Origin: Byssovorax sp.
GTDB taxonomy: Bacteria > Myxococcota_A > Polyangia > Polyangiales > Polyangiaceae
DNA: 44,096 bases
Reading direction: 5' to 3'
Assembly (NCBI GenBank): GCA_025362495.1
Contig: JANYGI010000041.1
Coordinates: 1-44,096 of the forward strand
In this document: piece by piece, positions 3,926 to 24,303 of the stretch
Position numbering within the stretch: the first letter of the stretch is position 1
Layout: each line of letters starts with the position of its first letter
Program-made: the position numbers and the translations under genes
Notes under the pieces: model-generated
Databases searched by the model: none
Seen by the model: the letters and a program-made list of their open reading frames with translations, nothing else
What the model was told of the DNA's origin: nothing

Positions 3926-4879
3926 GTGAAGCGAGCTGCATTGGGTCTCAGCATTCTTTCGGCGCTCATCATCGGTGGTTGTTACGGCGCGCCGGAGGCC
4001 GGCGACGACGAGGCGATCGCGCAGGGCAACGATGCCGTGCAGAGCATCGACACCCTCCCCAGCGGCAAGGGCCATGGGATCTTCACCAAGTTCCAGAAGC
4101 CGGATGGTCAAGGCAAGCCGGGCACCGGCGGCGGCGGCACCAACGGCATCTCCTACCACGGCGGCCCGGTGATGCTCGGGCAGGTGAACGCCTACTACAT
4201 CTGGTACGGCAACTGGGCGGGCAACTCGGCCACCACCATCCTCACCGACCTCGCCCAGAACCTCGGCGGATCGCCGTACTGGAACATCAACACCACCTAC
4301 AAGAACGGCGCGAACCAGGCCATCTCCAACTCGTTCGCCTACGCTGGCAGCACCACGGACGCGTACTCCCTCGGCACCGCGCTGACGGACGCCAACATCC
4401 AGACCATCGTCTCCTCGGCGATCTCCTCGAACAAGCTGCCCAAGGATACCAACGGCATCTACTTCGTGCTCACCTCGGCCGACGTCAACGCGACGAGCGG
4501 GTTCTGCACGCAGTACTGCGGCTGGCACACGCACGGGACCATCGGCGGGAGCGACATCAAGTACTCCTTCGTCGGTAACCCCGACCGCTGCCCCGCCTCC
4601 TGCGCCGGGCAGACGACGAGCCCGAACGGCAACGCCGGCGCCGACGGCATGGCGTCGATCATCTCCCACGAGGCCGAAGAGGCGACGACCGATCCCGACC
4701 TCAACGCCTGGTACGATACGAAGGGCGCCGAGAACGCCGACAAGTGCGCGTGGACGTTCGGCGCCACGTACAGCGCGGCCGGCGGCGGCCTCGCCAACAT
4801 GAAGCTCGGAACGCGGGATTTCTACATCCAGCAGAACTGGGTCAACGCCAGCGGCGGCTTCTGCGCGAAGAGCCACTGA
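3926..4879 (+). CDS. EXORDIUM/phosphate-induced-protein-1-like lipoprotein
   Basis: The product has 317 residues. The GTG at 3926 follows a strong ribosome-binding site (GAGGAGG). A lipoprotein signal (LSILSALIIGGC) is followed by a low-complexity linker and a Gly-rich patch. The core carries signatures of the Phi_1/EXORDIUM family best known from plants: YHGGPVMLGQVNAYYIWYGN near residues 74-93, a conserved Cys/His segment (FCTQYCGWHTHG) and SIISHEAEEATTDPDLNAWY near 247-266. The His/Glu cluster in the last segment resembles a metal-binding protease helix. The protein is probably anchored on the periplasmic face or cell surface. Its biochemical activity is not established in bacteria. It is well preserved, unlike the two broken lipoprotein genes just upstream. 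Confidence 0.8.
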   Translation: MKRAALGLSILSALIIGGCYGAPEAGDDEAIAQGNDAVQSIDTLPSGKGHGIFTKFQKPDGQGKPGTGGGGTNGISYHGGPVMLGQVNAYYIWYGNWAGNSATTILTDLAQNLGGSPYWNINTTYKNGANQAISNSFAYAGSTTDAYSLGTALTDANIQTIVSSAISSNKLPKDTNGIYFVLTSADVNATSGFCTQYCGWHTHGTIGGSDIKYSFVGNPDRCPASCAGQTTSPNGNAGADGMASIISHEAEEATTDPDLNAWYDTKGAENADKCAWTFGATYSAAGGGLANMKLGTRDFYIQQNWVNASGGFCAKSH

Positions 4880-5097
4880 GCTAACCCGGGGGAGCTACAT
4901 GCCATGACGTCGGGGCGACGGCCGGTCGCTCCGACGCATGGATACCAGCCACTCTCGTGGGTCGGTGACGATCCACGCTGCACATGTGTGAGGCGCCTTT
5001 GCCTCCGCAAAGGGTCTTGCCGCCGCGTCGCACGCGGTGCCAGAGTCCGCTCGCCCTCGATCCCGTACATCACGGCATCCTCGAGCAAGGAACTCCC

Positions 5098-5267: not shown

Positions 5268-7097
5268 CTACTTGCAGAACGAGGCGACGGTCCCGATCAG
5301 CTTGTCGTCCGGGGCGCTGTACGATCGCCCGGAGTTGAGCGCGCTGCCGGCCTTCCCGGTGTTCTGGTCCTTCGGGATGCACCAGATCTGGATGTCCGAC
5401 GGCGCCTCCCCCGTCTTGTTGTCGAAGTTCAGCGGCCCGGAAGCACCGTTGTAATCGATCGCTCCATCGTTGGCGACCTTGAGGAACGTCGAGTTGATGT
5501 CGCCGCCGACATCCACCTTGGGGCCGCTGCTCATCTTCTTCAGCCGCAGCGCCAGGTTCGCTCCGGTGAGGGGGTTGGCCCCGAGGCCCGCCGCGCTGTA
5601 GCCGAGGAGATAGATGATGTCGTAGCCGCCGGCCGCGCCGAAGACGTCGGGGCTCGTCCCGTCCTGGTACTTCGAGAGGTAGCCGGAGCGAAAGGCCTTG
5701 AACAGCGCGTTGTCCGTGCCCGGCACCGTGCCGCGGATCCGGGGGCGGAGCGTGTCGGCCGCGTCGTTCTTGGCGATGTAGTCCCAGAGCTCGGGGATCT
5801 CGCCGGCGTCGGAGAAGATGAACTGAGAGCGATACGACACCATCGGCGCTCCGTTCCACTGCTCCTCGATCTTGGCGAAGATGTCGGTGACACCCTCGTT
5901 GGCGCCGAACACCAGAGTCACGTTGGGCTTGAACGCCAGCGCCTGGGCGACCGTCTGCGGGTACTTCGTGGGGTTCACCGTCGGATCGTCGGGGTTACCG
6001 TAGTCGACGCGCAGGTAGCTCCCGTTGTTCGACTGATCGGTCGCCGGCTTGCCGTTGATGACCAGCTTCTGCTCGAGGGCCTTGGCCAGGCCGCTCCCGT
6101 AGGCATCGCCCTTGTTGAGGATCGCCACCTTGATCTTGTCGCTGGCCATCAGCCCGAGATCCATGCGCACCTGGGCCTCGACCTCCGGCATGTAGAGCGC
6201 GAGCGCCTGCGACTGAATGGTGTCGGTCGGCGACGTCCGCCACACGAGATCGTGGTCGTCGAGAGAGGTTATCGCCACGCTCGTCGCCGAGGGGGAGAAC
6301 AGGAGCACGTTGTCGGGGATCGTCACCGTGTTGGCGATGTCGATGGTGATCCCGCTGAAGGCGCCGCCGACGATCGCCACGACGCCGACGTCTTCGGCGA
6401 GGTGCTTGGCGGCCGTGACTGCCGTCGGGTTATCGCTGTCGTCGCTGCACCCGACGAGCACCATCGGCCGGTGTGCCGTCGACCCGCTGACCGGCGGGAG
6501 GCCGCTCGCGGTCTGGTTGAACTCGTCGAGCGCGAGCTTGAGCGAGTTCTCGATCGGTCGCCCCGTCGATGAGTCGCCGCCCGTCGTCGGGAGGACGGAG
6601 CCGAAGAACACGGCGTCCGGGTTCTTGTAGTCGCCGTAGACCGTCGTGCACTCCTTGCTGAGGAGGCTCACGCACTTCGCGCCGCGGCAGGTGAAGCCCG
6701 CGCCCTGCGCGGCGCACTTGGCCTCTTCGCAGCTCGTCGACGGATCGGTGCACTTGCCGGCGTCGCAGACCTGCCCCGCGATCTTGCAGTCCGTCGCCGT
6801 GGTGCAGATCGTCGCCGGCACGCACGCGCCGCTCACGCAGCTCGATCCGGCCTTGCACGGCGCCGTCATCGAGCACGTCGCGGGGGCGCAAATCGAAGGC
6901 TGGTCGGCGACCTTGCTGCAGATCTGTCCCGCCACCTTGCACTCGGTGTCGGCCGTGCACGCGTCGGCGTTGGTGTCGACGATCAGGGAGCACGACGCCG
7001 TCGTCGCGGCGATCCCGGCCGTCGCGATCAGGGCGAGGACGACGCGCGCGCGACGCCCGCTCGTCTCGCCGAACCCACCAGCTTGCATTGTTCGCAT
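5268..7097 (-). CDS. Branched-chain-amino-acid-type ABC substrate-binding lipoprotein with Cys-rich N-terminal region
   Basis: The product is about 609 residues from ATG 7097; a GTG one codon upstream is equally possible, and GAGGG precedes both. A signal peptide with lipobox (ATTASC) is followed by about 110 residues of spaced cysteines in repeated units (ACTADTECKVAGQICSK, ICTTATDCKIAGQVCDAG). The rest is a type 1 periplasmic ligand-binding (LivJ-like) domain: VFFGSVLPTTGG, ENSLKLALDEFN, VGVVAIVGGAFSG, VWRTSPTDTIQSQAL, VAILNKGDAYGSGLA and AAGGYDIIYLLGYSAAG. It would bind a small solute at the outer face. No permease or ATPase gene is nearby, so it may act as a sensor subunit or serve a distant transporter. 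The Cys-rich insert is typical of large myxobacterial lipoproteins. Confidence 0.82.
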   Translation of the reverse strand: MRTMQAGGFGETSGRRARVVLALIATAGIAATTASCSLIVDTNADACTADTECKVAGQICSKVADQPSICAPATCSMTAPCKAGSSCVSGACVPATICTTATDCKIAGQVCDAGKCTDPSTSCEEAKCAAQGAGFTCRGAKCVSLLSKECTTVYGDYKNPDAVFFGSVLPTTGGDSSTGRPIENSLKLALDEFNQTASGLPPVSGSTAHRPMVLVGCSDDSDNPTAVTAAKHLAEDVGVVAIVGGAFSGITIDIANTVTIPDNVLLFSPSATSVAITSLDDHDLVWRTSPTDTIQSQALALYMPEVEAQVRMDLGLMASDKIKVAILNKGDAYGSGLAKALEQKLVINGKPATDQSNNGSYLRVDYGNPDDPTVNPTKYPQTVAQALAFKPNVTLVFGANEGVTDIFAKIEEQWNGAPMVSYRSQFIFSDAGEIPELWDYIAKNDAADTLRPRIRGTVPGTDNALFKAFRSGYLSKYQDGTSPDVFGAAGGYDIIYLLGYSAAGLGANPLTGANLALRLKKMSSGPKVDVGGDINSTFLKVANDGAIDYNGASGPLNFDNKTGEAPSDIQIWCIPKDQNTGKAGSALNSGRSYSAPDDKLIGTVASFCK

Positions 7098-7199
7098 CAC
7101 CAGATCCCTCGGGGCCGCCGTGGGGCAAACCTTGCGAGATGATAGCCGCGCCTCGTCGATTGCGTCGACAAAACGCGCCGCATTCGGGCTCGGGAAGGC

Positions 7200-11130
<3,931 letters not shown>

Positions 11131-11154
11131 CCCGTCGATCAGCGGGGTCCTCGC

Positions 11155-11182
11155 GGGCGGGCACGGAGGCCCGCCCCACACC
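11155..11182. repeat. Solo copy of the dispersed GC-rich palindrome, between glnB and glnA
   Basis: GGGCGGGC (11155-11162) and GCCCGCCC (11169-11176) form an 8-bp stem around ACGGAG, followed by CACACC. The core is the same as the half-units at 14401-14431 and 24272-24302, and the reverse complement of those at 14264-14289 and 24168-24190. As RNA it would fold into a strong hairpin without a T tract, so it could stabilise or attenuate the transcript rather than terminate it. Confidence 0.75.
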
Positions 11183-12785: not shown

Positions 12786-13346
12786 TCAGCCGAGGCGATA
12801 CTCGTAGTGGACGATGGGATCGCCCACGGAGAAGCCGGCGATCCGCCGCATCGTCACCGCTCTGGCCCCCACGAGCTCGAGCCCGCGCTTGAAATAGGCA
12901 GTGATCGAGTACTCCATGTACACGTGGTGGTGCTCCTCGGGGATGCCGAAGAGGCGGAGCTCGACCTTGTTGTTCCCGGTGATCGTCGTCTCGGCCTGTC
13001 CGACGGTGTAGAAGTTCTGGTAGAGCAGGCGCCCCATCTCGGCGAACTTCTCCAGGCTCTTCGACGCGCGGAGATTCTTGTACGGACCCACGGTGAGCGA
13101 CCACTCGGCGCTCTTCTCGCCGAAGCGGAAGTCGCTCATCCGATCGCCGTTGTAGATGTCGCGCACCATCGCCTCCTGGAACGCGATGAACCGGGCGATG
13201 GGTATCGCCGTCGTCGCGAGGATCGAGCCCTCGAAGAGCGGATCGACGAGCGCGTGCTTCGCGAGGAACTCGGCGCAGCGCGCCTCGCCGATCTCCTGGA
13301 TGAGCATGGCTTTGCGAGCGAGGAACGCGGTGCCCTTCACTTCCAT
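12786..13346 (-). CDS. DUF2378/TIGR02265-like protein
   Basis: The product has 186 residues, starting MEVKGTAFLARKAMLIQEIG. The overall pattern matches my memory of the myxobacterial DUF2378 (TIGR02265) family: a VKG start, a helical first third, then FGEKSAEWSL, a phenylalanine/tyrosine-rich segment (LLYQNFYTVG), and a final beta-rich part ending VGDPIVHYEYRLG. The biochemical role is unknown; these proteins are often scattered in many copies in myxobacterial genomes. There are no membrane segments and no catalytic motif. It stands alone, convergent with glnA across a bidirectional terminator. Confidence 0.6.
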   Translation of the reverse strand: MEVKGTAFLARKAMLIQEIGEARCAEFLAKHALVDPLFEGSILATTAIPIARFIAFQEAMVRDIYNGDRMSDFRFGEKSAEWSLTVGPYKNLRASKSLEKFAEMGRLLYQNFYTVGQAETTITGNNKVELRLFGIPEEHHHVYMEYSITAYFKRGLELVGARAVTMRRIAGFSVGDPIVHYEYRLG

Positions 13347-13460
13347 GGTCGAGCCGTATCAGGCCGGGTCCCGGCCGCAAGCATCATCTCAGGACGTGTG
13401 CGGCACGTTACGTCATGTGTCGCCGCGAGGGCGTGATCCGGCCTCGTCGTCGGCGCCCCC

Positions 13461-13483
13461 TTGACTTAGTGTCCGTTTGACAC
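13461..13483 (+). promoter_or_regulatory. Palindromic operator-like site and -35-like box before the NrtR-like gene
   Basis: GTGTC (13469-13473) and GACAC (13479-13483) form an inverted repeat with a 5-base centre. It overlaps TTGACT (13461) and TTGACA (13477), both plausible -35 hexamers. The start codon is 34 bases downstream. The position suits autoregulation by the encoded Nudix/winged-helix protein, as is common for NrtR. No clean -10 box is seen. Confidence 0.45.
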
Positions 13484-13516
13484 CATTCTTCGTGTACAAG
13501 AAACACGGAGCCCCGG

Positions 13517-14206
13517 ATGACCTTCAGTTACAAGTACGAGCGGCCGGCGCTGGCCGTGGATTGCGTCGTGTTCGGCCTCGACGACGACGATCTCAAGGTC
13601 CTGCTCATCCGGCGCGACATCGAGCCATTCCAGGGCCGCTGGGCGCTCCCGGGCGGCTTCGTCCGCATGGACGAGACCGTCGACGAGGCCGCCAAGCGCG
13701 AGCTCGTGGAGGAGACGGGCGTCGGCCGCGTCTTCCTGGAGCAGCTCTACACCTTCAGCGCGCTCGATCGCGATCCGCGCGAGCGGGTGGTGTCGGTCGC
13801 CTACTTCGCCCTGGTGAACCTCTCCGATCACCGGGTCAAGGCCGCCACCGACGCGCGCGAGGCGGCCTGGTTCGCCACCTCGGATCTCCCCGCCCTGGCC
13901 TTCGATCACGAGATCATCGTCGACAAGGCCCTGGAGCGGCTCCGCGGCAAGGTGCGGTATCAGCCCGTCGGGTTCGAGCTCTTGCCCCCGAAATTCACGC
14001 TGCGGATGCTCCAGCGCCTCTACGAGAAGGTGCTGGAGAAGGCGCTCGACAAGCGGAACTTCCGCAAGAAGGTCCTCGCCATGGGCCTCCTGGAAGAGCT
14101 CGACGAGGTCGAGCAGGACGTGGCCCACCGCGCCGCGCGCCTCTATCGCTTCGACAAGAAGCGATATCGCGAGCTGGAAAAGCAGGGCTTCGACTTCGAG
14201 CTGTAG
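13517..14206 (+). CDS. Nudix-domain regulator, NrtR-like (Nudix plus winged helix)
   Basis: The product has 229 residues. The N-terminal Nudix domain (about 1-145) has a complete Nudix box, [20 protein letters not shown] followed by ETG. The C-terminal part (about 150-229: [39 protein letters not shown]) matches the winged helix of NrtR-type repressors, which control NAD biosynthesis and salvage genes and respond to ADP-ribose or NAD-derived ligands. Because the box is intact, ADP-ribose hydrolysis cannot be excluded. A palindrome lies just upstream, and a nicotinamidase-like gene lies 3 kb downstream on the same strand. NrtR is the likely family; the regulon is inferred. Confidence 0.8.
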
Positions 14207-14223
14207 CCCTCTCTCCCGCTTCT

Positions 14224-14261
14224 TCTGATTCCCATCTGACTCCCTTCTGACTCCCTTCTGA
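14224..14261. repeat. 11-bp tandem repeat bordering element A
   Basis: Three units of the form TCTGAYTCCCW (14224-14234, 14235-14245, 14246-14256) and a fourth TCTGA run straight into the left palindrome at 14264. The array lies just downstream of the NrtR-like stop codon. The second element (24161) also has a short TCTGA-containing repeat array on the same side. Confidence 0.7.
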
Positions 14262-14434
14262 TGTGTGGCGGGCCTCCGTGCCCGCCACATGGAGTCTCTC
14301 GAGCACCACAGACCCTCTGGATCGGGCCAGGAGCACCGGTTTGTGAATGGGTTTGCTCATCAGAGAAGATCCCGGACGGTCTGGGTTGCTATTGCAGTTC
14401 CATGTGGCGGGCACGGAAGCCCGCCCCACACGGA
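14258..14434. repeat. Element A: paired inverted palindromes with spacer (REPIN/MITE-like)
   Basis: The left unit is TGTGGCGGGC, loop CTCCGT, GCCCGCCACA (14264-14289), a 10-bp perfect stem, followed by TGGAGTCTCTC. The right unit, CATGTGGCGGGCACGGAAGC and on to CCCCACAC (14401-14431), is the same motif in inverse orientation. About 110 bp lie between them, including CAGACCCTCTGGATCGGGCC. Element B shares both ends, the GGAGTCTCTC flank and most of this internal block, so the two are homologous. No coding capacity or transposase is present. It lies between the NrtR-like and PP2C genes and would be transcribed if they form one unit. Confidence 0.75.
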
Positions 14435-14467
14435 GGCTCTGACACGCCAGGGCTTCGGGGAGATGTC

Positions 14468-15304
14468 ATGTCCTTTTGCGACCTGTTCCAGATCGCGGGC
14501 GGGAGTGTGCCCGGACGCAGCCACATCACGGTGGGGAAAGGCAATCAGGATGCCTATCACTGGTGCCTCGAAGAGAATTCGCTCGTCGCCGTCGTCTGTG
14601 ACGGCTGCGGCAGCGGCGCGGAGAGCGAGGTCGGCGCGGCGATCGGCGCTCGCCTCCTCGTGGCGGAGATCACCCGGGCGATCCAGCTCGGCCGCGCGAT
14701 CGAGTCGCCTGAGCTCTGGGAGTCCGTCCGGCAAAACGTGCTCGCGCGGCTCTCGGATCTCGTCTCGGCCATGGGGGGAAAGCGCTCGCACCTGGTGTCG
14801 GAGATGTTCCTCTTCACCGTGGTCGGGCTCGCGGTGGCCCCGGATCGTGCGGTGATCTTCGCGGCAGGAGATGGCCTGTTCGCCGTCGGCGACGACGTGG
14901 AGCGGCTCGGGCCCTTCGCGCGCAACGAGCCGCCTTATCTCGGCTATGGCCTCCTCGATCCGGATCCGGTCAGGCCCTCGTCTCCGCGGCTGATCGTTCA
15001 CCGGGCGTTCCCGGCGAGTGAGCTCGATTCCGTCTTGCTCGGCACCGACGGCGCGGCGGACCTGCTCGCGCTCGCCGATAGGGCCTTGCCCGGCGGAGAT
15101 GGAGAGTCGGTGGGCAAGCTGAGCCGGTTCTGGGAGGAGGCGAGTCATTTCACCAATCGAGACGCCGTGCGGCGGCGCCTCGCGCGGATCAACCGCGAGA
15201 TCACCAGGCCTGTCTGGGACGAGCGGCGCCTGGCGAGAGAGCCGGGGTTGCTCGAGGACGACACCACGATCGTCGTCGTCCGGCGTCGTTGTCAGGAGAG
15301 CTGA
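14468..15304 (+). CDS. PP2C-type Ser/Thr phosphatase (YegK-like)
   Basis: The product has 278 residues. The ATG at 14468 is preceded by GGGGAG. PP2C metal-binding motifs are present in a compact form: GNQDAYHW (Asp28), VAVVCDGCGSG (Asp45-Gly46), IFAAGDGLFAVGDD, LLGTDGAADLL and EDDTTIVVVRR (Asp264-Asp265). The enzyme should remove phosphate from Ser/Thr in the cytoplasm. The next gene, an atypical kinase, begins two bases after its stop, and a vWA gene follows in the same run. This is the kinase/phosphatase/vWA triad known from E. coli YegI-YegK-YegL and from ter loci (TerY-P). The phosphatase probably reverses the kinase's action. Confidence 0.86.
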   Translation: MSFCDLFQIAGGSVPGRSHITVGKGNQDAYHWCLEENSLVAVVCDGCGSGAESEVGAAIGARLLVAEITRAIQLGRAIESPELWESVRQNVLARLSDLVSAMGGKRSHLVSEMFLFTVVGLAVAPDRAVIFAAGDGLFAVGDDVERLGPFARNEPPYLGYGLLDPDPVRPSSPRLIVHRAFPASELDSVLLGTDGAADLLALADRALPGGDGESVGKLSRFWEEASHFTNRDAVRRRLARINREITRPVWDERRLAREPGLLEDDTTIVVVRRRCQES

Positions 15305-15306
15305 TC

Positions 15307-17235
15307 ATGCTGGCGCAAATCTTCGGGAAATCCTCCAGGATGGATGTCTACGTCGGCGGCAAGCGGGTCACGGTGAACCCCCAGGCGTCGGTCGGCAAAG
15401 GCGGTGAAGCCGACGTCTTCGATCTCGGCAGCGGGACGGTGCTCAAGCTCTGGAAGACACCGGAGCACGCCGATTTCGAGGGGATGCCGGCCGAGCAAGA
15501 CGCCGCGCGGGCGAGGATCGACCTTCACCAGCAGAAGATCCGCGCCTTCCCCCGCGGGCTCCCGGCGCGGGTGGTCGCGCCCGCCGCGCTCGCCACCGAC
15601 AAGAGCGGTCAACGCATCCTAGGGTACACGATGACCTTCGTCGACGGGGCCGAGGTGCTGATGCGCTTCGGCGATCCCAGGCTCCGCGATCTGGCGGAGT
15701 CGAGCGCGCGGGCCCTGGTCGATCTCCATGGCACGGTGGCCGGGCTGCACGCGATGGGCGTGGTGATCGGGGATTTCAACGATCTCAATGTCCTCGTCAA
15801 GGACGAGCAAGCCTACCTGATCGACGCCGACAGCTTCCAGTTCGGCGGCTTCCTCTGCCGGGTGTTCACCGAGCGCTTCGTCGATCCGATCCACTGCGAT
15901 CCGCTGGAGTCGCGGCCCGTCCTCTGCAAACCATACTCGGTCGACTCCGACTGGTACGCCTTCGCGGTGATGGTGATGCAAACGCTGCTCTCCGTCGGCC
16001 CCTACGGCGGCATTTACAGGCCGAAGTCCGTCGCGGCCCGCCTGCCCGAGTGCGCCCGGCCGCTGCGGCGGATCACGGTGTTCCACCCCGAGGTGCTCTA
16101 TCCCAAGCCCGCTGCGCCGTATGCCGTGCTCCCGGACGATCTGCTCCACCACCTTCATCAGGTCTTCGAGGGTGATCGGCGGGGAGCCTTTCCCCGCGCG
16201 CTGATCGAGGATCTCGGGTGGACGCGCTGCCCCGCCTGCGCGGCCGGCCACGCGCGGGCGGTGTGCCCGTTCTGCGTCACCACCGCTCCTGCGGCCCTGA
16301 AGGAGATCACCGTCGTTCGCGGCGAGGTGACGGCGAGCCGGATCTTCGCGACGAAGGGCGTGATCCTCGCGGCGACGGTCGAGGACGGGGAGCTTCGCTA
16401 TCTCGTCCACGAAGGGCGAGAGTACCGCCGCGAGGACGGCCGCGTGGTCCTGAATGGCCCGCTCGATCTCCTCGCGCGCTTCGCGGTCCGCGGCGATCAA
16501 ACCTTCCTTGCGCGCGGATCGAAGGTGATTATCCTCGAAGGAGGAGCGGTGACGGGCAAGCTCCAGGTCGACCGCGTCGGGATGCGGCCGGTCTTCGCCG
16601 TCAACGCCCACCACCGCTACTGGGTCCAGGGCGGGCGGCTACTGCGCAGCGACGAGGGATCGCGCACAGGCATGCTCCTCGACGCGGCGTCACCCCCGTT
16701 CGCCATCGGCGAGGTGCTCGCGGGGCAGACGCGGATCTGGGTGGGAGAGCGCCATGGATTCGGCTTCTACCGCGCCGGCAACCTGTCCGTGGCCTTCGTC
16801 TTCGACGCCGATCGCCCCGGGATCAAGGACACGGTGAAGCTGCCTTTTCTCGCCGGCCAGCTCGTCGACGCCACCTGCGTCGTCGGCGACGACCGCGCCT
16901 GGGTGCTGCTCGCGGCGCAGTCGGCGGGCCGCACGCGCCATCAATGCGTCGTCGTCGCGCGCACCGGCGAGGTGATCGCCACCGCCGAGGGCGACGCCGA
17001 CGACGGCACCTGGCTCGGCACCCTGCGCGGCAAGTGCGCTGTCGGATCCTTCTTGCTCGCCGCGACCGACAGCGGGTTGGTGCGCGTCGAGGAGAAGCAC
17101 GGCGCTCTCGTCGAGACGCGCCAGTTCCCCGACACCGAGCCCTTCGTCACCCGCGCTTCGACGCTGCTCGCCGGCCCGCGAGCCCTCCACGTCGTCGAGG
17201 CCACCACGATTCACACGCTCCGCATCCGGGCGTGA
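15307..17235 (+). CDS. Atypical protein kinase with zinc ribbon and C-terminal repeat region (YegI-like)
   Basis: The product has 642 residues; the ATG at 15307 has GGAG upstream and starts 2 bases after the PP2C stop. The kinase fold is visible but divergent: glycine loop SVGKGGEADVF, Lys47 in VLKLWK, a catalytic loop VIGDFNDLNVLV replacing HRDLKPEN (Asp156 and Asn161 kept) and IDADSFQ in place of DFG (Asp173). This GDFND/DADS version is typical of the YegI/TerY-P kinases. A zinc ribbon follows (RCPACAAGHARAVCPFC; Cys308, 311, 320, 323). The last 300 residues are beta-rich (GRVVLNGPLDLLARFAVRGD, ALHVVEATTIHTLRIR), like a propeller. Likely partners are the adjacent PP2C and vWA proteins. Confidence 0.82.
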   Translation: MLAQIFGKSSRMDVYVGGKRVTVNPQASVGKGGEADVFDLGSGTVLKLWKTPEHADFEGMPAEQDAARARIDLHQQKIRAFPRGLPARVVAPAALATDKSGQRILGYTMTFVDGAEVLMRFGDPRLRDLAESSARALVDLHGTVAGLHAMGVVIGDFNDLNVLVKDEQAYLIDADSFQFGGFLCRVFTERFVDPIHCDPLESRPVLCKPYSVDSDWYAFAVMVMQTLLSVGPYGGIYRPKSVAARLPECARPLRRITVFHPEVLYPKPAAPYAVLPDDLLHHLHQVFEGDRRGAFPRALIEDLGWTRCPACAAGHARAVCPFCVTTAPAALKEITVVRGEVTASRIFATKGVILAATVEDGELRYLVHEGREYRREDGRVVLNGPLDLLARFAVRGDQTFLARGSKVIILEGGAVTGKLQVDRVGMRPVFAVNAHHRYWVQGGRLLRSDEGSRTGMLLDAASPPFAIGEVLAGQTRIWVGERHGFGFYRAGNLSVAFVFDADRPGIKDTVKLPFLAGQLVDATCVVGDDRAWVLLAAQSAGRTRHQCVVVARTGEVIATAEGDADDGTWLGTLRGKCAVGSFLLAATDSGLVRVEEKHGALVETRQFPDTEPFVTRASTLLAGPRALHVVEATTIHTLRIRA

Positions 17236-17258
17236 TTCACCGAGAGGAGACCAGAACA

Positions 17259-18305
17259 ATGACTCGCACCGAGCTTCCGCTCCCCGCGTTCTACGATCCG
17301 AAATCCACCGAGCGCTGGGGATACCACCCCGATCAACAGGCCGTCTTCAACGCGGCGACCGCGTTCCAGAAGATGCACGCCATCAAGCCTTCGGGCTCCG
17401 ACAAGGAGAACGTTCACCTCCTGCTCATCGACGTCCAGAAAGACTTCTGCCACCCCGAAGGCTCGCTCTACGTGGCCGGGCGGAGCGGGCGCGGCGCCAT
17501 CGACGACAGCCGCCGCCTCGCCGAGTTCGTCTACCGCAACCTGGGCTCGATCACCGCCGTGACCACCACGATGGATACCCACTTTGCGTACCAGATCTTC
17601 TTCCCCTCGTTCTGGGTCGACACGGAGGGCAACGCGCTCCAGCCCTACCGCGAGATCACCATGGCCCAGATCGACGCAGGGGAGGTGCGCCCCAACCCCT
17701 CTGTCGCGAAGTGGCTCTGCGGCGGCAATTACCCCTGGCTGATGGCGCAGGCGCGGCACTACTGCGAATCGCTGGAGAAGGCTGGCAAATACAAGCTCTA
17801 CCTCTGGCCGCCGCACTGCCTGCTCGGGAGCGACGGACACGCCCTCGTCGGGGCCATCCACGAGGCGCGCCTCTTCCACTCGTTCGCGCGAGGAATGCAG
17901 TCGTACGTCGAGGTCAAGGGCGGTAACCCGCTGACGGAGAACTACTCGGTGATGCAGCCCGAGGTGCTGACGCGCCACGACGGGCAGCCGCTGGCGCAAA
18001 AGAACACGCTCTTCCTGAAGACGCTGCTCCAGGCCGACGCGGTGATCATCGCCGGACAGGCCGCGAGCCACTGCGTGAAGAGCTCGATCGACGACATCCT
18101 CCAGGAGATCTGCACCCGGGATCCGGCGCTGGCGAAGAAAGTCTACGTGATGACCGACTGCATGTCTTCGGTCACGGTCCCCGACGGCGCCGGCGGGTTC
18201 TTCGCCGACTACACGAGCGAGGCCGAGGCCGCGCTCCGGCGCTTCGCCGACGCGGGGATGAACCTGGTCAAGAGCACCGACGCGCTCTCGAGCTGGCTCC
18301 GCTGA
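17259..18305 (+). CDS. Nicotinamidase-like cysteine hydrolase (isochorismatase fold, long form)
   Basis: The product has 348 residues, against about 200 for PncA, with an extra N-terminus and inserted segments. The ATG at 17259 follows GAGAGGAGACC. The catalytic triad is present: Asp58 (LLIDVQKDF), Lys220 (VEVKGGNPLTENYS) and Cys272 (AGQAASHCVKSS). A PncA-type metal site is suggested by Asp106 and His108 (TTMDTHF) and by LWPPHCLLGSDGHAL. The expected reaction is nicotinamide to nicotinic acid plus ammonia, the first step of the deamidating NAD salvage route, but the long form could use another amide. It lies inside the PP2C-kinase-vWA run, with only 23 bases after the kinase gene. Confidence 0.8.
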   Translation: MTRTELPLPAFYDPKSTERWGYHPDQQAVFNAATAFQKMHAIKPSGSDKENVHLLLIDVQKDFCHPEGSLYVAGRSGRGAIDDSRRLAEFVYRNLGSITAVTTTMDTHFAYQIFFPSFWVDTEGNALQPYREITMAQIDAGEVRPNPSVAKWLCGGNYPWLMAQARHYCESLEKAGKYKLYLWPPHCLLGSDGHALVGAIHEARLFHSFARGMQSYVEVKGGNPLTENYSVMQPEVLTRHDGQPLAQKNTLFLKTLLQADAVIIAGQAASHCVKSSIDDILQEICTRDPALAKKVYVMTDCMSSVTVPDGAGGFFADYTSEAEAALRRFADAGMNLVKSTDALSSWLR

Positions 18306-18376
18306 ACCGTACTGACGCACCGGACCGCGACTGTCCGGGAGCGGACTCCGACCATCGTGACGCTACAGGAGATCTC

Positions 18377-19198
18377 ATGAACGGCAATGACGACAATGGC
18401 AAGGTTCGCCCCGGCGGCGTGAACATCAAGAAGCTTCTCCAGGATGCCGAGGACGAGGGCAAGCTCTCTCCGGCCGCGGTACAGGCCCTGAACGTCATCG
18501 ATCTCGGCGCGCAGATCCAGGCCGGCCTCGGCGCTTCGGTCGACGACGTGCAGTCGTCGGAGGTGGTGCTGGTGACGATCATGCCCGACGATTCGGGCTC
18601 GATCCAGCACGGCAACAACGCGGAGGCGGTGCGCAGCGGGCACAACCTGGTGCTCGGCGCCCTCGTCGACTCCAGGCAGCGCGACTCGATCCTGGCGCAC
18701 AACCGGTATCTCAACGGGCACGTGCTCTACCCGTATTGCCCCATCGCCAAGGCGATCAAGATGGACAGGAGCAACTACGATCCCAGGCTCGGGACTCCGC
18801 TCTACGACCAGACGGTGGTGCTCCTCGCGACGGTGATCGCCAAGGCCCAGGAGTTCGCCAACAACGGGGTCCCGGCGCGGACGGTGACCCTGATCATCAC
18901 CGACGGCGGCGACGCCGGATCGACCTGGGCCAGGGCCAGGGACGTCAAGGTGCTCGTGCGCGACATGATGCAGTCGGAGAGCCACATCGTCGCTGCGATG
19001 GGCATCGACGACGGGAGCACGAACTTTCGCGACGTGTTCCGGAGCATGGGTATCGACGACCGGTGGATCCTCACGCCCGGCAAGGACGCGGCCGAGATCC
19101 GCAAAGCGTTCCTGATGTTCTCGCAGTCGGCGGTGCGAGCCAGCCAGGGCGGGGCCACGTTCTCTCGCGCCGCGGCAGGTGGGTTTGGCAGCCCGTAG
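18377..19198 (+). CDS. von Willebrand factor A domain protein (TerY/YegL-like)
   Basis: The product has 273 residues; ACAGGAG precedes the ATG. After about 60 residues of helical lead, the vWA domain has a complete metal-ion-dependent adhesion site: Asp71-x-Ser73-x-Ser75 in MPDDSGSIQ, Thr140 in LGTPLYDQT and Asp176 in LIITDGGDAGS. It ends with a Ser/Ala/Gly-rich tail. In the TerY-P triad the vWA protein is thought to act as a metal-dependent scaffold or phosphorylation substrate for the kinase/phosphatase pair. It is the last gene of the run and is convergent with the kinase at 19208 across 9 bases. Confidence 0.85.
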   Translation: MNGNDDNGKVRPGGVNIKKLLQDAEDEGKLSPAAVQALNVIDLGAQIQAGLGASVDDVQSSEVVLVTIMPDDSGSIQHGNNAEAVRSGHNLVLGALVDSRQRDSILAHNRYLNGHVLYPYCPIAKAIKMDRSNYDPRLGTPLYDQTVVLLATVIAKAQEFANNGVPARTVTLIITDGGDAGSTWARARDVKVLVRDMMQSESHIVAAMGIDDGSTNFRDVFRSMGIDDRWILTPGKDAAEIRKAFLMFSQSAVRASQGGATFSRAAAGGFGSP

Positions 19199-19207
19199 GC
19201 TGTCAGA

Positions 19208-20287
19208 CTACCGGTGGCCCATCACGGCCATCACCAGCAGCAGCATCACCACGCCGAGGGCCACGCCGGCGCCGGCGGCGATCAGCACCACGCTGCGGAG
19301 TGAGAGCGCCTTCGAGGGCACCTTGCCGCGGGCGATCGTCCCGACCTCGTCGACGGCGAGATCGCTGGCGCGGCGCTGCGTCTCGCCCACGCTGCGGTCG
19401 GTGGTGCGGCGGCCGAGCGAGCGGAAGCGCACGGCCTTCATCTCGCGCATCGCGCCGTCCATCTGCTTGCTGAGCAGGCCGGAGTTCGACGTGCGCTCGT
19501 CGCGCTCGCGCTTCAGGCAGGCGTCGACGATGGCGCAGACGCTGGGCGGCAGATCGGTCTTGCGCGTCATCACGGGATCGCAGTCCTGCGTGAGGATGCG
19601 GACCATGAGCGCGTTGTAGTTGGCTGCCTGGTGCGGCAGCGTGCCGGTGAGCGCCTCGTACATGACGATGCCGAGCGACCAGATGTCGGCGCGACCGTCG
19701 ATGTCCTCGCGGCCGCCGGCCTGCTCCGGGCTCATGTACGCGGGCGATCCGACGACGGTGCCGGTGCGCGTGAGCGTGAAGTTGTGGCCGGTGTCGAAGA
19801 CCTTGCTGATGCCGAAGTCGAGGATCTTGGCGACAGGCTGGCCCGCGTTGTTCTTGCCGACGAAGATGTTCGCGGGCTTCAGATCGCGGTGAATGATGCC
19901 GTTGGCGTGCGCCAGCTCGAGCGCCTTGGCCACGCCGACGAACATCTCGAGCAGGGGCTCGGGGGCGATGGTGCCCTCGCGGCGGAGCTTCTCGTCGAGG
20001 CCTTCGCCTTCGAGGAGCTCGAACACCAGGAAGGGCGAGCCGTCCTCGGCCTGGCCGAGGTCCAGGATCTCGACGATGCTCGGGCTGCGCACCCGGCCGC
20101 TGGCCTTGGCCTCGTTGAAGAAGCGCTGCAGCGCGACCGCGTCTTCGGCGACGTCGGGGCGCATGATCTTCAGCGCCACGTCGCGGTCGATCAGCTCGTT
20201 GCGCGCGTGCCACACGGCGCCGCTCGCTCCCGAGCCGAGGAGCCGGATGAGACGGTAACGAGACTGGAGCAGATCGCCGGAATTCAA
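19208..20287 (-). CDS. Ser/Thr protein kinase with C-terminal membrane anchor
   Basis: The product has 359 residues. It is a complete Hanks-type domain: LLGSGASGAVWHA, Lys40 in VALKIM, HRDLKPAN from 133, DFG at 157-159 and [12 protein letters not shown] short basic and polar linker (about 290-325) follows, then one membrane helix (VVLIAAGAGVALGVVMLLLV) and only a few residues beyond. There is no sensor domain outside, so input probably comes from cytosolic or membrane partners. It converges on the vWA gene, and whether it belongs to that system is unknown. Confidence 0.9.
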   Translation of the reverse strand: MNSGDLLQSRYRLIRLLGSGASGAVWHARNELIDRDVALKIMRPDVAEDAVALQRFFNEAKASGRVRSPSIVEILDLGQAEDGSPFLVFELLEGEGLDEKLRREGTIAPEPLLEMFVGVAKALELAHANGIIHRDLKPANIFVGKNNAGQPVAKILDFGISKVFDTGHNFTLTRTGTVVGSPAYMSPEQAGGREDIDGRADIWSLGIVMYEALTGTLPHQAANYNALMVRILTQDCDPVMTRKTDLPPSVCAIVDACLKRERDERTSNSGLLSKQMDGAMREMKAVRFRSLGRRTTDRSVGETQRRASDLAVDEVGTIARGKVPSKALSLRSVVLIAAGAGVALGVVMLLLVMAVMGHR

Positions 20288-24165: not shown

Positions 24166-24303
24166 GTGGGGCGGGCCTCCGTGCCCGCCGCATGGAGTCT
24201 CTCCAGTGACTCAGACGATCGGGATCCGTGCTGGAGCAGATCTCATCTGGATCTGGCAGCTCCAGCCTGTCCATGCGGCGGGCACGGAGGCCCGCCCCAC
24301 ACC
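24161..24303. repeat. Element B: paired inverted palindromes with spacer (REPIN/MITE-like)
   Basis: The left unit is GTGGGGCGGGCCTCCGTGCC and on to CGCCGCAT (24166-24193), followed by GGAGTCTCTC. The inverted right unit is CATGCGGCGGGCACGGAGGC and on to CCCCACAC (24272-24302). The spacer is about 70 bp. Within it CAGACGATCGGGATCCGTGC lines up with the same block in element A, so both derive from one ancestor. No open reading frame explains the conservation. Confidence 0.75.

Follow-up and report, generated by a model that had tools for sequence, protein, structure and literature searches.

A YegI-type kinase, phosphatase and vWA operon with a nicotinamidase-like gene and a predicted NrtR operator in Byssovorax sp.

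Gene content of the locus

A run of five genes, encoding an NrtR-family regulator, a predicted phosphorylation switch and a nicotinamidase-like enzyme, was analysed in a 44,096-nucleotide stretch of DNA from Byssovorax sp. (GenBank assembly GCA_025362495.1, contig JANYGI010000041.1, positions 1 to 44,096), referred to below as the window. The window is contig C88 of a 10.8-Mb genome, whose nearest named relatives, judged by the hydrolase described below, are Sorangium and Polyangium. The run comprises five intact open reading frames (ORFs), all on the forward strand between positions 13517 and 19198, for NrtR, a PP2C-type phosphatase (PP2C), a YegI-like kinase (KIN), a nicotinamidase-like hydrolase (HYD) and a vWA protein (VWA). 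Intergenic gaps are 261 bases (NrtR-PP2C), 2 bases (PP2C-KIN), 23 bases (KIN-HYD) and 71 bases (HYD-VWA). The five genes very likely constitute one functional module, and a link of this module to NAD is likely.

The original prediction, made from the sequence alone, had described a phosphatase/kinase/vWA triad with a hydrolase gene between those for the kinase and the vWA protein and an NrtR gene upstream. This arrangement was confirmed, and the gaps of 2, 23 and 71 bases that it listed were exact. It placed the start of the locus at position 13461, 56 bases before the NrtR start codon, and those bases were found to hold two predicted operators. The features of the locus are as follows.

13468-13484, no strand assigned: predicted NrtR operator 1, AGTGT-N7-ACACC, one mismatch to AGTGT-N7-ACACT
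13491-13507, no strand assigned: predicted NrtR operator 2, CGTGT-N7-ACACG, two mismatches; its start lies 23 bases beyond that of operator 1
13517-14206, forward strand: NrtR-family regulator, 229 aa, with a Nudix domain (intact Nudix box) and a winged helix
14468-15304, forward strand: PP2C-type Ser/Thr phosphatase, PphC/YegK-like, 278 aa, from the PF13672 and E. coli PphC matches
15307-17235, forward strand: YegI-like Ser/Thr kinase KIN, 642 aa, from the YegI match, invariant residues and AlphaFold2 model
16228-16275, forward strand: putative zinc ribbon of KIN with four invariant Cys, from an alignment of 29 KIN
about 16306-17226, forward strand: C-terminal all-beta, WD40-like propeller of KIN, predicted from the model
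17259-18305, forward strand: large nicotinamidase-like hydrolase HYD of the isochorismatase fold, 348 aa, from residues, PDB matches and model
18377-19198, forward strand: vWA protein VWA with MIDAS residues, 273 aa, from conservation and hhalign

In the window, NrtR and PP2C scored above curated Pfam cut-offs and KIN, HYD and VWA below them. Among 18 scanned KIN, HYD and VWA members, a single one (HYD of locus L050) passed its cut-off, which may explain why the cluster is easily missed. The identities proposed for these three proteins rest on profiles of homologues, residue conservation and predicted structure. A known RNA element in the operon was dropped as a candidate after an Rfam scan of positions 13300-19400 gave no match at gathering scores.

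Kinase, phosphatase and vWA proteins

The phosphatase matched Pfam PP2C_2 (PF13672) with 73.1 bits (cut-off 24), and a PP2C profile scored 39.9 bits against E. coli PphC. A Pfam scan of the KIN of the window gave no Pkinase match; a profile built from nine KIN relatives scored 108.9 bits against E. coli YegI. Residues D156, N161 and D173 of KIN, as well as the cysteines C308, C311, C320 and C323, were invariant in all 29 sequences aligned, and the position of the cysteines indicates a zinc ribbon C-terminal to the kinase domain. An AlphaFold2 model of KIN (pLDDT 85.9, pTM 0.53) showed a long all-beta C-terminal part. Foldseek matches of this model were kinases and WD40 proteins, with LRRK2 first; since TM scores normalised by query length were only about 0.3, the propeller stays a prediction.

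No Pfam match was obtained for the VWA of the window. Its MIDAS residues D71, S73, S75, T140 and D176 were invariant in 9 of 9 sequences. The VWA profile gave a low score (4.4 bits) against YegL in an HMM search, and a profile-profile comparison (hhalign) with YegL-type vWA proteins returned a probability of 92% and an E-value of 6e-7.

TerY-P triads (PMC11090510) combine a TerY-like vWA protein with a PP2C and with a kinase that carries a zinc ribbon at its C-terminus, and have been tied to tellurite resistance and restriction. The module shares with them the three kinds of protein, including a MIDAS vWA protein, the putative zinc ribbon after the kinase domain and the phosphatase gene directly adjacent to that of the kinase (gap of 2 bases). 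It differs from them in its near-constant nicotinamidase-like enzyme, in the predicted propeller that follows the zinc ribbon and in the predicted NrtR operator that most operons of the gene order found in the window (type A, see below) carry. No restriction or tellurite genes were noticed near the module, no scan of the neighbours having been aimed at them. Relative to the YegI/PphC (YegK)/YegL set of E. coli, kinase and phosphatase are clear homologues and the vWA protein is a remote one, but no hydrolase or NrtR is annotated beside the E. coli genes in 15 kb of K-12.

The nicotinamidase-like hydrolase

Residues D58, D106, H108, H186, K220 and C272 of HYD were present in all 131 sequences examined. 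We take them, in part from the aligned PDB sequences, to be the Asp-Lys-Cys triad and metal site of nicotinamidases. The three best PDB sequence matches of HYD were nicotinamidases. Its structural model had a mean pLDDT of 94.9, and the 12 best Foldseek PDB chains, some of them chains of one entry, were all nicotinamidases, with maleamate amidase, biuret hydrolase and RutB ranking below them. Sequence and model thus suggest that HYD shares its fold, catalytic triad and metal residues with PncA and Pnc1. It differs from these enzymes in its length (348 aa versus about 200), in an N-terminal extension of approximately 48 residues and an enlarged middle segment, both seen when it is aligned with yeast Pnc1, and in scoring below PncA cut-offs. 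We consider HYD to be probably a nicotinamidase.

Recurrence of the gene cluster

To survey its distribution, 377 genomes of the phylum were searched with HYD and KIN profiles, both of which had been built from members found adjacent to each other. Up to five candidates per genome were scored in the HYD search and up to three in the KIN search, in which matches above about 34 bits were listed; the thresholds of 200 bits (HYD) and 170 bits (KIN) were our own choice. The HYD profile matched 73 genomes at E <= 0.001 and 54 at 200 bits or more. The KIN profile matched 269 genomes at E <= 0.001, mostly through other kinases, and 35 at 170 bits or more, the next separate kinase below this group scoring 128 bits. 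Gene profiles in six frames were used to label the loci of each of the 54 HYD genomes, as well as kinase loci away from HYD; of the lower-scoring kinases, only those of L136 and L137 were examined.

In 32 of the 35 KIN genomes, HYD lay beside KIN on the same strand, with KIN within 1505 bases. In two others (G336, G283) KIN and HYD fell on separate contigs, both close to an end, and in the third (G300) the KIN contig measured 3.4 kb and no HYD was found in an assembly that is 75% complete. With these three broken at contig ends, no clear counter-example to the adjacency of KIN and HYD was present among the 35 genomes. The original prediction had held that the clustering would be accidental if related triads lacked the hydrolase and regulator, with these two found elsewhere; the presence of the hydrolase next to KIN in 32 of 35 genomes of the KIN subfamily did not bear this out, and accidental clustering was rejected as very unlikely because the cluster recurs in other genomes. 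The recurrence of the regulator as a neighbour, which the prediction had also proposed to check, was partial: NrtR lay within 8 kb at 18 of the 32 HYD loci that have KIN and VWA. A search for NrtR in 20 genomes (17 with no NrtR seen beside the module and 3 with one) gave a match at E <= 0.001 in all of them, strong in 18 and only weak in G172 and G314, and a strong NrtR was found elsewhere in 15 of the 17 genomes without an adjacent one.

Within 8 kb of HYD, the 54 genomes showed KIN in 33, VWA in 33, PP2C in 21, NrtR in 25 and a NAPRT-like gene in 7 cases. KIN and VWA occurred together at 32 of the 54 HYD loci, in every case on the HYD strand and with VWA within 231 bases. Two gene orders were observed: type A, that of the window (PP2C-KIN-HYD-VWA, with NrtR before or after), and type B (HYD-VWA-(PP2C)-KIN-NrtR). 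Gene order was stable in several genera.

A scan of a wider collection was restricted to the 80 stretches closest to the window out of at least 577 pattern matches, and near relatives are therefore over-represented in this sample. Three of its loci (L154, L156, L170) are copies of others (L089, L091, L104). They were left out of the non-duplicate counts, operator tests, HYD tree, residue counts and correlations, and were still counted in locus labelling and in the tallies of tandem sites, 8-kb neighbours and ADP-ribosylglycohydrolase genes. Outside the survey, KIN and VWA were present at 40 of 77 non-duplicate HYD loci, 25 of which also had NrtR within 8 kb. These 40 loci belong to Myxococcota (19), Cyanobacteriota (12), Acidobacteriota (2), Elusimicrobiota (2), and Pseudomonadota, Uhrbacteria and Minisyncoccota (one each), with 2 lacking a phylum in the table. 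Among 30 cyanobacterial HYD loci, KIN and VWA accompanied HYD in 12 and part of the set in 1, and 17 had no profiled genes nearby. The claim of recurrence rests on Myxococcota and Cyanobacteriota, since the small groups consist mostly of metagenome-assembled genomes (MAGs) and the one Pseudomonadota record, titled Comamonas sp. KCTC 72670, looks myxobacterial. The module likely occurs in Acidobacteriota (two MAGs). The Comamonas locus (L152) carries a module very like those of Myxococcus, and the record may be misnamed or mixed.

At L183 (positions 6024-9044), a continuous open frame of 1006 codons encodes both KIN and HYD; this arrangement was seen only once and may reflect an assembly error. 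Across 59 loci, the pairwise identities of the three proteins KIN, HYD and VWA correlated with coefficients of 0.84-0.91 (at most 0.32 after permutation); these values are not corrected for species relatedness, and shared species history alone would also give such a correlation. In a tree of 131 HYD sequences, the triad label changed 15 times, compared with 40.5 times for shuffled labels; as its long branches meet, gain and loss of the triad are not distinguishable in it. An ordinary triad served as negative control: in G367, which also carries the NAD-linked module, genes for a YegL-like vWA protein, a PP2C and a YegI-like kinase lie together at about 6384-10281 of L136, with neither HYD nor NrtR within the 18 kb that were fetched.

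The NrtR regulator and its predicted operator

The assignment of the regulator as an NrtR-type Nudix/winged-helix protein in the original prediction was upheld by scores above cut-off for NrtR_WHD (PF21906, 94.3 bits, cut-off 27) and NUDIX (PF00293, 75.2 bits, cut-off 21.1).

When 9216 combinations of half-site and spacing were compared upstream of PP2C or NrtR, AGTGT-N7-ACACT was the most frequent, occurring at 43 of 77 loci (mean 1.25, sd 2.4 for the combinations). The next six palindromes were shifted or one-base forms of it, and a GC-rich CGCGC-N3 palindrome was found at 24 loci. Loci were considered testable if they contained PP2C and KIN and had 200 bases or more of upstream sequence; at 45 of the 55 that qualified, AGTGT-N7-ACACT, with up to one mismatch, lay no more than 350 bases from PP2C or NrtR. 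The figure of 45 of 55 is not independent, because discovery and testing of the consensus used mostly the same loci and no correction was made for their relatedness. Across the same 55 loci, 29 permuted half-sites, a control for base composition only, were present at 0.59 loci on average and at 5 at most. Tandem sites at a spacing similar to that in the window were seen at many other loci, and of the 9 regions examined upstream of Polyangia-type NrtR genes, 7 contained a CGTGT-N7 palindrome. PP2C-testable survey loci without NrtR nearby had the operator in 7 of 10 cases (absent at L095, L097 and L100).

As expected for a gene under NrtR control, a predicted palindromic operator precedes the NrtR gene of the window. 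The NrtR palindrome of M. smegmatis has the same N7 spacer but different half-sites (PMC6800001), and NrtR motifs differ between groups (PMC4666351, PMC5343134). ADP-ribose or NAD acts as the effector of NrtR in Shewanella, Synechocystis and M. smegmatis, according to PMC4666351 and PMC6800001. By analogy, NrtR of the window would bind the palindrome, and ADP-ribose would be its effector.

Links to NAD salvage genes

Genes for nicotinate phosphoribosyltransferase (NAPRT) and NadE recur near the module at part of the loci. In G020, a member of the window's family, NAPRT and PP2C are divergently oriented with two perfect palindromes between them, and the HYD locus also holds NAPRT. A NAPRT above NCBIfam or Pfam cut-off adjoins the module in L042 and L149; one identified by similarity lies beside it in L148, and such genes lie near HYD in L158 and L171. 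A remote relative of NAPRT is located directly beside HYD in L051, L107, L126, L127 and L131 and beside HYD and VWA in L115; L109 carries the same label directly beside HYD by the labelling profile alone. This label (NAPRT2) was built from L051_6, itself without a Pfam match, and the remote relatives of L051 and L231 matched only NAPRT families in NCBIfam, below cut-off.

In L167, the genes for PRPP synthetase, NadE, NrtR, HYD, PP2C, KIN, a second HYD and VWA form a single run, in which the PRPP synthetase was confirmed by Pfam and NadE assigned by resemblance. The two HYD copies of this run lie at 3968-5017, next to the NrtR and NadE-like genes, and at 7989-9044, between KIN and VWA. In L213, NAPRT and NadE, both identified by Pfam, are found near NrtR and the module.

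Fourteen NrtR loci distant from the module were inspected. NAPRT or a relative was present in 8 (L219, L220, L222, L223, L224, L225, L226, L231), NadE in 6 (L220, L221, L222, L223, L224, L226) and a NAPRT-PRPP synthetase-NadE-NrtR run in 5 (L220, L222, L223, L224, L226). The palindrome, with up to one mismatch, occurred at 4 of them (L220, L222, L223, L224). Small PncA-like genes followed NrtR in L220, L222 and L225 (Pfam isochorismatase, 95, 91 and 82 bits), and a longer PncA-like gene did so in L219, where the stretch scored 232.5 bits, above the NCBIfam PncA cut-off. Apart from NrtR, no NAD gene was labelled in L227, L230 and L232, and the gene caller found no NrtR in L228 and L229. In the window's genome, a separate run on contig C178 of G000 (L245, 3661-7706) contains NAPRT, a small PncA-like gene, a Nudix/NrtR-like gene and then a CoaE-like gene; G013, G029 and G367 have the same run, and G018 has it with the Nudix gene missing.

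The module resembles known NrtR regulons of NAD metabolism in the Nudix domain and winged helix of its regulator, in the N7 palindromic operator and, in some genomes, in a predicted regulon that includes NAPRT, NadE and PncA-like genes. It differs from them in that the predicted regulon takes in a Ser/Thr kinase-phosphatase-vWA operon, in the intact Nudix box of the window NrtR and in a half-site unlike that of M. smegmatis.

Proposed function of the module

On balance, these data probably indicate that a TerY-P/YegI-type phospho-switch that has a nicotinamidase-like enzyme of its own was recruited into a regulon of NAD turnover controlled by NrtR. Judged by sequence, this reading draws on the conserved gene set and order, the common palindrome, the retained catalytic residues, the linkage to NAPRT, NadE and PRPP synthetase at part of the loci and the one KIN-HYD fusion. 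In the proposed scheme, breakdown of NAD would release ADP-ribose and nicotinamide. ADP-ribose would release NrtR from its tandem AGTGT-N7-ACACT operators, allowing the operon to be made, and HYD would deamidate nicotinamide, or a close relative, and so feed NAD salvage. KIN and PP2C would determine how far HYD, or the MIDAS vWA protein that may hold the partners together, is phosphorylated. Salvage would thereby be gated after translation by a signal read at the propeller or zinc ribbon of KIN. Nicotinamide as the substrate of HYD, HYD among the targets of KIN and the direction of control are putative elements of this scheme. The original prediction had combined a NAD-linked triad with a stress- or defence-like role: its first part is borne out by the recurrence of the cluster, the predicted operator and the salvage-gene neighbours, and the defence part found little support, as discussed below.

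Several observations weigh against this interpretation. HYD of the window scored 26.4 bits against Pfam isochorismatase (cut-off 27) and 30.6 bits against NCBIfam PncA (cut-off 174). Small PncA-like genes coexist with HYD in the window's genome and in G013, G018, G029 and G367, and in G379 and other module genomes a PncA-like gene lies beside a distant NrtR; owing to these separate genes in the window's genome and its relatives, HYD looks redundant as a nicotinamidase. No KIN was found near HYD in 21 of the 54 HYD genomes, some of these loci being at contig ends (in G336 and G283 KIN is on another contig). NrtR of the window scored 168.9 bits against the NCBIfam NtrR equivalog (cut-off 400), a model of one equivalog and not of the family. 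The Nudix box was intact in 36 of 58 NrtR sequences, including that of the window, and the boxes of characterised NAD-type NrtRs are impaired (PMC4666351, PMC6800001); with an intact box, the window NrtR may still hydrolyse ADP-ribose. The operator was missing at 10 of the 55 testable loci (L043, L045, L047, L048, L093, L095, L097, L100, L101, L176), and type B loci, mostly not testable in this respect, had sites at only two (L113, L122). Of the 7 NAPRT-like labels in the survey, 6 are remote relatives, and the five scanned matched only NAPRT families, with 80-132 bits and below cut-offs. Finally, no palindrome with up to one mismatch was detected in the NAPRT-PncA-like run of the window's genome (L245) or in 6 NAPRT and 9 NadE stretches, nearly all from the window's family, so that co-regulation with salvage was not seen in the window's genome. 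NadE and NAPRT were dropped as targets of the same operator in that genome; among the stretches examined, which do not amount to a genome-wide scan, no predicted NrtR target other than the module was seen.

A stronger version of the proposed scheme, which we regard as tentative and rather less probable, is that the switch, conserved in several phyla, acts directly as the gate of a large nicotinamidase dedicated to it. NAD breakdown would then be read twice, as ADP-ribose by NrtR at the promoter and as a second signal by the propeller or zinc ribbon of KIN at the enzyme. Control of HYD by the kinase, with KIN phosphorylating HYD, is a possibility that we would not favour over its opposite. If true, direct gating would mean that a concrete substrate in metabolism exists for one branch of the TerY-P triads.

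The presence of other PncA-like proteins in the same genomes, some beside a distant NrtR, favours the explanation that HYD is a paralogue acting on another pyridine amide or nicotinamide derivative, and that the module handles a by-product of NAD turnover and does not feed salvage. With an ordinary NAPRT-PncA-like pair present in the window's genome, HYD may serve there as an additional nicotinamidase, or its substrate may be a compound related to nicotinamide. The length of HYD, its N-terminal extension and longer middle segment, and its scores below the family cut-offs are consistent with such a change of substrate. On the other hand, HYD retains every residue at positions corresponding to the catalytic and metal-site residues of nicotinamidases, the His of the WPxH motif among them, the best fold matches place nicotinamidases ahead of related amidases, and HYD stands directly beside NAPRT-like genes at the loci named above. 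A PncA profile search of ten genomes gave a match in 8, above cut-off in only 2 (G321, G379), and none in G020 and G004, both of which have HYD, that of G020 in the locus with NAPRT. Such silence is weak evidence, because the profile also missed HYD in G000. We consider the paralogue explanation unlikely, though it retains some weight.

Nudix-type regulators also occur in conflict systems, among them the ARG-centric systems reportedly described by Iyer et al. in 2022. As set out in PMC9503650, these systems pair an ADP-ribosylglycohydrolase with a Nudix-HTH regulator, a phosphatase and sometimes a vWA protein. A comparable function for the module, in which it would answer ADP-ribosylation, with the Nudix regulator sensing ADP-ribose and the vWA protein acting as a chaperone, appears improbable. 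ADP-ribosylglycohydrolase genes were detected by tblastn with two queries in 10 of 149 sequences, all of them cyanobacterial modules (two genes in L184 also matched PF03747), and were absent from the window and the non-cyanobacterial loci searched. The published core comprises neither a nicotinamidase nor a YegI-like kinase, whereas the window and the myxobacterial modules searched combine a YegI-like kinase, a PP2C and a nicotinamidase-like enzyme and lack the ADP-ribosylglycohydrolase core. Antiphage systems do occur among TerY-P-like modules (PMC11090510). In a PADLOC-DB scan of the five window genes, only NrtR matched (candidate PDC-S07, over the Nudix domain, 31.7 bits), together with a weak match of the kinase (MkoA, 13.8 bits); neighbouring genes were not scanned systematically for defence genes. 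A role in defence, or a location in a defence island, is little supported in view of these few matches, the stable gene order in several genera and the fact that the identified recurrent neighbours are NAD salvage genes.

That the link is transcriptional only, with NrtR controlling salvage and an unrelated phospho-switch and HYD a passenger not regulated by the kinase, would accommodate the HYD genes without KIN nearby, 7 of which have NrtR or NrtR and a NAPRT-like gene, but is highly improbable in the face of the adjacency of HYD and KIN in 32 of 35 KIN genomes, none of which was shown to lack HYD, the position of HYD between KIN and VWA in the type A order, the single KIN-HYD frame of L183 and the correlated divergence of KIN, HYD and VWA.

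To our knowledge, no physiological targets of TerY-P/YegI-type triads have been established. In the module described here, one branch of these triads has a metabolic partner that is nearly always present, together with a predicted regulator whose kind of ligand is known; this branch occurs in named relatives of Myxococcus and in cyanobacteria. Partner and regulator define concrete tests, with one substrate, one effector and one candidate phosphorylation target. In the open-licence literature searched, no paper was recognised as describing an NrtR-nicotinamidase-triad module, which is not proof that it is unpublished.

Adjacent genes and repeats

Genes for other Ser/Thr kinases flank the module. 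One, at 19208-20287 on the reverse strand (Pkinase, 163 bits), was not observed to accompany the module regularly, and another, within 7789-11181 on the reverse strand, was judged from its sequence. The window also contains a 24-base GC-rich, REPIN-like repeat in inverted pairs 107-139 bases apart, one of which lies in the NrtR-PP2C gap:

14265-14427, no strand assigned: REPIN-like inverted-repeat pair, from the genome-wide repeat count and fold z-score

The copies in the window are located at 14265-14288 (forward) and 14404-14427 (reverse), at 24168-24191 (forward) and 24275-24298 (reverse), and at 11154-11177 (reverse). In the genome, 44 half-elements were counted with up to one mismatch, compared with 0 for a reversed-pattern control. 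The pair in the NrtR-PP2C gap, which folds with a z-score of -8.4, is not thought to be part of the mechanism; in the relative L040, the same gap measures 16 bases according to our own gene calls.

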